34,401 nucleotides of DNA from NCBI GenBank assembly GCA_031273325.1, contig JAISSB010000038.1, positions 1 through 34,401 on the forward strand, written 5' to 3'. Both the position numbers and the translations under genes were made by a program. This stretch comes from Treponema sp. (lineage in GTDB: Bacteria; Spirochaetota; Spirochaetia; Treponematales; Breznakiellaceae). Below the pieces are notes generated by a model. It ran no database searches. It saw only the letters and a program-made list of their open reading frames with translations, and was not told the origin of the DNA. Each line of letters begins with the position of its first letter. Within the stretch, counting starts at the first letter, position 1. This document shows positions 15,892 through 33,724 of this stretch, piece by piece.

Positions 15892-15979
15892 GGTCTGTCC
15901 CCATTAACTTTGTTGTCTGTTAAAGGACTGGGGTCTGTCCCCAAATGACAGAGGGTCTCAAGACAGGAGGTCTGTCCCC
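15892..15979. repeat. Three family-B copies (GGTCTGTCCCC orientation) upstream of dnaN
   Basis: GGTCTGTCCCC at 15892-15902, 15932-15942 and 15969-15979. Confidence 0.9.
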
Positions 15980-16014
15980 ATAAACAAAGCAAGGCTTCTC
16001 CTTAAGTGTAGAAT

Positions 16015-16184
16015 GTTCCTTGCAAGATGCAAATGACTTGATACATAGTGTTAAAGGTTCTTGCAAGGTGCAAATAACGTACTGCATAGTGCTAAAGCTT
16101 CTTGCAAGGCGCACATGACTTGCTACAGAGTGTAGTAACCTCTGAAGGAGGTAGTGAGAGACTTAATACGTAGTGCAGCAAATC
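16015..16184. repeat. Degenerate direct repeats of about 42 bp, three units plus a partial fourth
   Basis: TTCCTTGCAAGATGCAAATGACTTGATACATAGTGTTAAAGG / TTCTTGCAAGGTGCAAATAACGTACTGCATAGTGCTAAAGC / TTCTTGCAAGGCGCACATGACTTGCTACAGAGTGTAGTAACC / ...GACTTAATACGTAGTGCAGCAAATC. Confidence 0.8.
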
Positions 16185-16225
16185 TCCCGATCAAGCGGGA
16201 TGCACATGAATCATGCCAACGTTGC

Positions 16226-16251
16226 AGCTAGTTTTGATTCAAGGGTCTGTC
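16226..16251. repeat. Left copy of the direct repeat bracketing the transposase
   Basis: AGCTAGTTTTGATTCAAgggTCTGTC; 17 bp are identical to 16791-16807, and similarity extends into TCTGTC. Confidence 0.9.
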
Positions 16252-16254
16252 CCC

Positions 16255-16770
16255 TTAAGTCGAAAAGTCTGCCGTGAAAACCTTAGCGAATAAATCTGAG
16301 AAGGTCGTCACAATATGAGTAATATTGTGAAGATAATGGTATAAACCGCCGAATATCCATTCTTTCGCTTGTCTTACCAACCCGGCTTTTACCGGATTTT
16401 GATTAATATACCGGAATACTCTCAGAAAATCCTCTCTCCTTTCAATTACTCGTGCGTGAAATCTATCTCCCCATACATGCCCGGTTACCCCGTGCATCTT
16501 ATTCCACCGGATAGCGAAGACCATTTTTATCCATTTCATAATTACGGAAAGACTAACGTCTTTGTCCGGTGTTATGAGGAAATGAACATGGTTATCCATA
16601 ATACAGAAGTTCCACAGTTTAAACCCATACTTTTGATGTGCTTCAGCGATAATCTTTATAAGAAGCGCTTTGATAACGGGATTTTTGAGTTCCATTAACC
16701 ATCGGTTTATTTCAAAGGTGACATGATAGGTATAACCGTAAAAGGTATTTCCTCTAATTTTGCGAGCCAT
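16255..16770 (-). mobile_element. REP-associated tyrosine transposase (RAYT, Y1/IS200-like HUH)
   Basis: 171 aa: YHVTFEINRW..., FCIMDNHVHFLITP (HUH), HVWGDRFHARVIERREDFLRVFRYINQNPVKAGLV (catalytic Tyr region). Confidence 0.9.
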
Positions 16771-16790
16771 ATCAAGTTAACGGAGTGTAT

Positions 16791-16816
16791 AGCTAGTTTT
16801 GATTCAATAATCTGTC
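16791..16816. repeat. Right copy of the direct repeat bracketing the transposase
   Basis: AGCTAGTTTTGATTCAAtaaTCTGTC. Confidence 0.9.
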
Positions 16817-16842
16817 AACTTTTTTTGTCGTCATAACTCAGA

Positions 16843-16915
16843 GGTCTGTCCCCTTAAGCTATCCCTTTTTGAGGTCTGTCCCCGTTAGCTCTTCTTTTAT
16901 TTGAGGTCTGTCCCC
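16843..16915. repeat. Three family-B copies between the transposase and the M28 peptidase gene
   Basis: GGTCTGTCCCC at 16843-16853, 16873-16883 and 16905-16915. Confidence 0.9.
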
Positions 16916-23058: not shown

Positions 23059-23248
23059 TACATAGTAGCAATGAATAGCACCGCTATGCAAGAGGAATGA
23101 ACCTTTTTTTTACGAAAAGATAAAATTTCCTGTTCAATATTCAATCATACATATTCTGTGGATCGTACTTCCTCTAAGGTAGAGCTTACTCATTGAACGA
23201 AACTAATGGGGGGACAGCCCTTCTGGGGACAGACCCCGTATCGTTTTT

Positions 23249-23440
23249 AAAAATGGTCGCTTGATTTTCTAAAACGGTCGTTTGATTTTGTAAAACGGTC
23301 GTTTCATTTTAGTAAAACGGTCGTTTGATTTTAACAAAACGGTCGTTTCATTTTGTAAAATGGTCGTTTCATTTTCTAAAACGGTCGTTTCATTTTCTAA
23401 AACGGTCGTGTGGTTTTCTAAAACGGTCGTTTGATTTTTG
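23249..23440. repeat. Family C tandem array, left: 9 copies of a 21-22-bp unit AAAACGGTCGTTTGATTTTNN
   Basis: Direct count of (A)AAA(C/T)GGTCG cores. Confidence 0.95.
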
Positions 23441-23493: not shown

Positions 23494-23540
23494 GGTCTGT
23501 CCCCGTGTAGAAATCTACGGTTGTTCGGGGTCTGTCCCCA
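23494..23540. repeat. Two family-B copies (GGGGTCTGTCCCC) immediately upstream of the ttcA-like gene
   Basis: GGGGTCTGTCCCC twice in cttggggtctgtccccgtgtagaaatctacggttgttcggggtctgtccccattg. Confidence 0.9.
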
Positions 23541-24362: not shown

Positions 24363-24571
24363 GGGGACAGACCCTATATCATTGGGGACAGACCCTGTGT
24401 CTTCGGGGAAAAATCCCTATGTTTTTGGGGACAAACCCTATATTTTTGGGGACAGACCCTGTGTTTTTTGGGGACAGACCCTATATCTTTGGGGACAGAC
24501 CCTGTTGATCTGGGGACAACTTCTGTTGATTTGGGGACAACTTCTGTTGATTTGGGACAGACCCTGTGCCG
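24363..24571. repeat. Family B-like array: about 10 units of 21-23 bp (GGGGACAGACCCTATATCTTT and variants)
   Basis: Repeated GGGGACAGACCCT with decayed units (GGGGAAAAATCCC, GGGGACAACTTCT). Confidence 0.93.
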
Positions 24572-24575
24572 TTTT

Positions 24576-24832
24576 CAAAAACGGTCGCTTAATTTTCAAA
24601 AACGGTCGTTTGATTTTGTAAAACGGTCGCTTGATTTTAATAAAACGGTCGTTTTATTTTAACAAAACGGTCGTTTGATTTTCTAAAATGGTCGTTTCAT
24701 TTTCCAAAACGGTCGTATAATTTTCCAAAACGGTCGTTTGATTTTGTAAAACGGTCGTTTGATTTTGTAAAACGGTCGTTTGATTTTGTAAAACGGTCGT
24801 TTGATTTTGTAAAACGGTCGTTTGATTTTAAG
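24576..24832. repeat. Family C tandem array, right: 12 copies of the 21-22-bp unit
   Basis: Direct count; the last five units are nearly identical (AAAACGGTCGTTTGATTTTGT). Confidence 0.95.
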
Positions 24833-33669: not shown

Positions 33670-33724
33670 GGTCTGTCCCCGTTGTCGATGATTCGGGGTC
33701 TGTCTCCCCTTGAGGTCTGTCCCC
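33670..33724. repeat. Three family-B copies downstream of ychJ
   Basis: GGTCTGTCCCC (33670-33680), GGGGTCTGTCTCCCC (33695-33709), GGTCTGTCCCCTTAAG (from 33714). Confidence 0.92.

Follow-up and report, generated by a model that had tools for sequence, protein, structure and literature searches.

The 171-aa protein encoded in the 34,401-nt stretch of DNA that we analysed (hereafter the window) belongs to a set of about 30 paralogous Y1 transposases of the RAYT type encoded by one spirochaete genome. These paralogues lie in short elements bounded by usually direct copies of an 11-nt core, GGGGACAGACC, a putative recognition and cleavage site on single-stranded DNA, and it is probable that the RAYTs spread core-ended DNA, from which arrays then grow locally. 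Most knowledge of RAYT-repeat systems comes from proteobacteria, in which a single domesticated gene is accompanied by hairpin REPs. Here, one genus offers dozens of RAYTs per genome, cores at the exact ends of the elements and, in sister lineages, at least four cores that are specific to their lineage and occupy the same position. Because sister lineages carry their own cores at the same position, the specificity of a RAYT for its repeat is directly testable by protein and oligonucleotide swaps. In the collection of papers that we searched, we found nothing relevant on the core word, on RAYTs in treponemes, or on a comparable spirochaete system.

A Large Family of RAYT Paralogues

The gene is located at 16255–16770 on the minus strand and was identified from its open reading frame together with Pfam, NCBIfam and structure matches. 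Its product contains the HUH motif in the form NHVH (H61, H63), a single catalytic tyrosine, Y121, within YINQNP (the Y---NP arrangement of class 2), and a W100-G101 signature. Y1_Tnp is the only domain matched by Pfam profiles. The NCBIfam profile REP_Tyr_transpos (NF047646) gives 98.4 bits, above its cut-off of 80, and the IS200 profile NF033573 gives 33.7 bits, below its cut-off of 55. When a profile built from 25 relatives was compared with solved structures, TnpA_REP (4ER8) was the sole match; 4ER8 is also the top structural match of the predicted fold (pLDDT 85; TM 0.71), followed by IS608 and ISDra2. The profile, the YINQNP motif and the fold match all uphold the RAYT identity proposed in an earlier note on this DNA. 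One peculiarity is the W-G at the guide-contact motif, where W-Q or W-E would be expected; the published class-2 table lists mostly these two at the W signature (PMC6006769). We considered a phage or plasmid origin of the gene and rejected it, the matches being only distant (<40% identity).

The same note took the RAYT to be single-copy, and this does not hold. The genome itself (G000) has 37 RAYT matches, 24 of them above the NCBI cut-off, and three relatives have 116 (G001), 47 (G002) and 49 (G003), so that the low or single copy number expected of a RAYT is found in none of these four genomes. The G000 copies share 62–91% protein identity with the window copy, and 20 intact ones have a median dN/dS of 0.13 and a median dS of 0.73. 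Judging from these substitution rates, the copies are under purifying selection and are old, with their functional state preserved. A recent burst of the IS kind is contradicted by the protein differences of 9–32% among the G000 copies and by their median dS. Because about 30 paralogues could have made the repeats described below, these are not attributable to the window copy in particular.

Anatomy of the Element

The ends of the window element were defined by exact matches to the core and by alignment of element ends. All its parts are on the minus strand. The right-end core (16244–16254) directly abuts the stop codon, confirming the contact already noted at the 3′ end of the gene. The left-end core (16843–16853) is the first upstream copy, at offset −83 from the ATG. 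Between it and the gene is the leader (16771–16842; family D13), which holds a diverged core-like GTTGACAGATT at 16809–16819 and a conserved TTGAATCAAAACTAGCTATACACTCCGTTAACTTGAT before the ATG. Immediately after the right-end core, CTTGAATCAAAACTAGCT (16226–16243), also of family D13, corresponds to a partial second left end, a solo remnant of the leader.

Most intact RAYT copies in G000 have a core about 47–84 nt upstream of the ATG and a second one at the stop codon or a few nucleotides past it, usually both in gene orientation; in a minority both cores are reversed (L041, L057), the strands of the cores are mixed, or no core is close by (L043). In the core-aligned copies, mean pairwise identity is 0.98 inside the core and 0.26 just outside it at the left end, and 0.96 inside the core and about 0.28 beyond +16 at the right end. 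Since homology stops this sharply at the cores, the element consists of core, leader, gene and core. It measures about 0.6 kb, with a leader of about 50–70 nt, and its bounding core reads aaN-GGGGACAGACC-[T/C][C/T]. At L047 the leader is joined straight to a core and the gene is absent, which fits the expectation for gene-less derivatives.

The Core in the Window and in the Genome

The core occurs 45 times exactly in the window, against 0.00 expected by shuffling. The 1.82-Mb genome has 1,255 exact copies, compared with a single copy of the reversed word. All seven copies listed in the earlier note around the RAYT are exact and on the minus strand: besides the two element ends, these are two more upstream cores in direct orientation at 16873–16915 (16873–16883, 16905–16915) and three between the RAYT and dnaN at 15892–15979 (15892–15902, 15932–15942, 15969–15979). 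Between the RAYT and these last three, positions 16012–16134 contain three 41-bp tandem units, 76–78% alike and unrelated to the core. A long direct array on the plus strand (609–1526) has a 22–23-bp period and about 40 units, with 28 exact cores, and a second plus-strand array (24363–24501) has a 21-bp period, with five exact cores plus degenerate ones; the latter ends 71 bp short of a 21-bp array of another family, and a degenerate core ends about 9 bp short of it. Dispersed cores are present at 23225–23235 (plus strand), at 23494–23539 (23494–23504 and 23529–23539, minus strand) and, after a YchJ-like gene, at 33670–33724 (33670–33680 and 33714–33724, minus strand). Of the cores, 77% are intergenic.

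Taking one copy per cluster (n = 417), the consensus is aaN-GGGGACAGACC-[T 78%, C 20%]-[C 79%, T 16%], the two bases 3′ of the core being TC in 264 clusters, CC in 64 and TT in 51. The flank consensus of these 417 clusters has no GTAG beside the core, which is preceded by AAN. The sister cores AGGTCAGACCT and GTGTCAGACAC, described below, are perfect short palindromes around CAG. As single-stranded DNA, the commonest form of the core, with CCTC rather than CCCC, has a folding energy of −0.4 kcal/mol (z +0.41) and no significant hairpin on either strand; the minority CCCC form does fold (−3.5 kcal/mol). The form GGGG-ACAGA-CCCC, given earlier as the core, is correct for one of the seven window copies (15932) and not for the other six. 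Likewise, its description as an interrupted palindrome of the kind expected of a REP is not supported, as GTAG is absent, the commonest form has no significant hairpin and pairs are direct. A single-strand structure is hinted at by the two pyrimidines that follow the core, since on that strand alone they could form G-C or G-T pairs with the two Gs at its start.

Arrays of Cores and Their Growth

Repeat organisation was sampled, by stretches, in 1.25 Mb of G000. Neighbouring cores within 200 bp are direct in 958 cases and inverted in 47 (95% direct). They form 421 clusters, of which 210 are single cores and the largest has 35 copies, so the earlier remark that the arrays exceed ordinary REP/BIME doublets is correct. 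All genomes used are drafts, and the counts are lower bounds because contigs often end in arrays. Core spacings peak at 42, 22, 23 and 21 bp. In three of the 42-bp arrays (L101 10972, L123 18892, L145 6937), intact core units alternate with diverged ones (GACAGATT..CTG), which shows that G000 has higher-order units.

Comparing unit with unit in 34 arrays, identity is 0.95 in the core and 0.81 in the linker. The 12 nt located 3′ of the core share 0.64 identity within an array, at all lags, and 0.39 between arrays. From these comparisons it follows that arrays grow locally with the core kept constant; the greater similarity of linkers that belong to one array calls for local tandem duplication in addition to dispersal. 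Growth by duplication of nearest neighbours was rejected, because linker identity is flat across lag.

Core Type Follows RAYT Lineage

Using the 171-aa protein we searched 119 genomes, our own included, and found a match in 58. In the relatives, the best RAYT copies have a core in the corresponding position, and its four main kinds are GGGGACAGACC, AGGTCAGACCT, GTGTCAGACAC and GGGGACAGAGC. Of 28 relatives, 22 have an exact linked core of one of these types and 26 have one with at most one mismatch, compared with 0/140 and 1/140 for shuffled flanks. On a tree of 66 RAYTs, core type requires 5 changes, versus 30.5 with shuffled labels. The linked core of a RAYT lineage is also usually the abundant core of its genome. 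Counts of the four words, in the above order, are 1255/0/4/1 in G000, 7/749/0/1 in G001, 239/3/0/1 in G002, 41/397/0/3 in G003, 9/4/222/1 in G026, 0/0/67/2 in G006 and 5/0/0/85 in G083, and G075 is mixed (115/0/0/102). G026, where each of two RAYT lineages has a core of its own, serves as a within-genome control. As expected of a RAYT, the gene is tied to a lineage-specific short repeat present in many copies.

The sum of the four cores per genome has a median of 21.5 where a RAYT is present and 3 where it is absent (p = 2e-14, or 2e-13 without the genus; genomes are treated as independent, and their kinship makes these values optimistic). At least 20 core copies are found in 32 of the 58 genomes with a RAYT versus 2 of the 61 without. 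Two genomes with about 40 copies of GGGGACAGAGC each are exceptions: G045, in which no RAYT was found (79% complete), and G053, with one weak match. They possibly hold relic repeats left after loss of the RAYT gene, or are incomplete. Two others, G016 and G065, gave 162 and 75 first-look candidates for more distant Y1 transposases (best E about 1e-17 and 1e-14), together with few cores of the four types. The element ends, the co-segregation of core with lineage and the tracking of RAYT presence by core abundance together bear out the view of the earlier note that the core, its family B, is the sequence linked to the RAYT. Relatives without a RAYT do not match the others in repeat abundance, and none of the RAYT copies of G000 carries a different linked palindrome. 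An empty-site comparison at dnaN showed no empty site and no movement: the contigs of G001–G003 end beside dnaN or lack the flanking genes, and the relatives are too diverged.

A second RAYT lineage in G002 has AGGACAGTCCT at its ends. We had predicted that this word would be abundant, and the prediction failed: there are only 11 copies in the genome, most at RAYT ends, so linkage to a RAYT does not always bring amplification. Three G002 RAYTs (C14:2907-3555, C14:19507-20130, C30:18615-19242) have inverted ends, AGGACTGTCCT ... AGGACAGTCCT, and almost no dispersed copies. This lineage is TIRtron-like and coexists with an amplified lineage in one genome.

The distribution of core types also bears on an alternative in which the cores are protein-binding or regulatory sites kept by the host and older than the RAYT, which would insert beside them as its target. 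The intergenic location of most cores, their constancy relative to the linkers and the frequent presence of RAYTs inside core clusters would all suit such sites. However, core type switches with RAYT lineage across genera, and even inside G026, while its position upstream of the ATG stays the same; RAYT-less genomes are mostly without cores; and core plus leader is common to the copies as a unit. We therefore consider host sites improbable as the source of the repeats.

A Possible Mode of Spread

We favour instead a spread of cores driven by the RAYTs, which is likely. The core is most likely the recognition and cleavage site of the protein on single-stranded DNA, and the RAYT would cut at or beside it. 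A C|T step sits at the 3′ edge of the core in conserved sequence, and E. coli TnpA_REP cuts at this dinucleotide (PMC8266576); as a cut site here it is, by this analogy, only suggestive. The RAYT would then move or copy core-ended DNA, mainly gene-less left-end pieces, and dispersed cores would become direct arrays of 21–23-bp units via local tandem duplication, with the core staying more constant than the linkers.

Less probable still than host sites is that slippage or unequal recombination alone made the repeats, the RAYT genes being passengers copied with the surrounding DNA. The arrays are indeed direct and locally alike, and unrelated sequences also form arrays with a 21/23-bp period, but half of the 421 clusters are single cores, the homology of RAYT copies ends exactly at the cores, and core type follows RAYT phylogeny. 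Slippage accounts for the growth of arrays and not for dispersal.

Comparison With Known Systems

TIRYTs and TIRtrons are RAYTs flanked by GGGGWSAS-type sequences (PMC3733652), a group that was subsequently connected with subclass 2.1, whose proteins have a median length of 238 aa and a C-terminal HTH tail (PMC6006769). The window system resembles them in having a RAYT-like Y1 gene with GGGGACAG, which fits GGGGWSAS, at both ends, in having copies of it elsewhere in the genome, and in belonging to a species without GTAG REPs. It differs in that the ends are usually direct rather than terminal inverted repeats (inverted AGGACTGTCCT ends occur in one G002 lineage), in the length of the protein (171 aa, with no C-terminal HTH in the Pfam search, which matched only Y1_Tnp), and in its scale, with more than 20 RAYTs and more than 1,200 cores per genome and long 21–23-bp arrays. 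The system is nearest to the TIRtron/TIRYT type, but with direct ends, and is not a canonical REP system.

With the TnpA_REP/REPtron type of E. coli (4ER8) it shares HUH and a class 2 Y---NP, the best structural match, and a repeat proper to each RAYT lineage; unlike that type, it has no GTAG guide, a weak or absent hairpin in the commonest core, direct arrays, a multicopy gene and W-G. REPINs are inverted pairs, as are 93% of the doublets in SBW25 (PMC3116915). Like REPINs and BIMEs, the cores are short, intergenic, gene-less repeats linked to a RAYT, and some tandem clusters have been reported for REPINs (PMC3116915); here, in contrast, direct neighbours account for 95% and clusters contain up to 35 copies. 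The core has neither GT[AG]G at a hairpin foot nor an inverted pair as its unit. It is very unlikely indeed that we are dealing with a canonical domesticated RAYT and hairpin REPs or REPINs in gammaproteobacterial style: protein family and fold, the many copies of a short repeat linked to the gene, purifying selection and the perfect palindromic arms around CAG in sister cores AGGTCAGACCT and GTGTCAGACAC agree with one, but GTAG is absent next to the core, direct neighbours outnumber inverted ones 958 to 47, the commonest core does not fold significantly, there are 37 RAYT matches and not one, and the guide-contact motif is W-G, not W-Q/E.

The IS200/IS605 family shares the Y1 transposase fold and the plan of a gene-carrying element with a core at either end. 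It is set apart by the IS200 profile score below cut-off, by Y---NP (YINQNP) here rather than Y---Q, by the lack of any subterminal hairpins found, and by copies that are old (dS 0.73) and not near-identical.

Other Tandem Arrays of 21 and 23 bp

Tandem arrays of 19–25 bp make up 3.3% of the 1.25 Mb sampled, with sharp peaks at 21 and 23. Those that do not contain the core number 127 and fall, by simple clustering, into 51 unrelated families, mostly intergenic, whose period is in almost every case exactly 21 or 23; the window contains three such arrays (419–597, 23250–23438, 24572–24829). A core lies within 50 bp of 56% of the non-core arrays, versus 25% of random intergenic points. Of 30 cases in which cores are present on both sides of an array, 24 have them in direct orientation, and the orientation to the core is fixed in several families. 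G001 has the same 21/23 periods with its own core, and the RAYT-less G030 and G031 have almost no such arrays (60-kb sample each). Arrays and RAYTs are not strictly coupled, however, as G002 combines few of the former with many of the latter.

It may be, although we find it rather doubtful, that the RAYT system of this genus is a general maker and carrier of tandem arrays. Core-bounded segments, including the RAYT gene and 21/23-bp arrays of about 50 unrelated sequences, would be copied between loci with the core and expanded at a period of roughly two helical turns. If true, this repeat system would be of a new kind, beyond RAYTs with REPs. The 21/23-bp arrays offer a lead on the origin of short tandem arrays in bacteria. 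The idea that every array unit is a REP-like hairpin was rejected, a 6-bp stem being present in only 9 of the 51 families (null about 2.6%). No known RNA family was found in the window. In G001, a stretch at L255 18454–18684 has a 66-bp period with GTCGCACCCCACGCGGGTGCGTGGATTGAAAC and resembles a CRISPR repeat.
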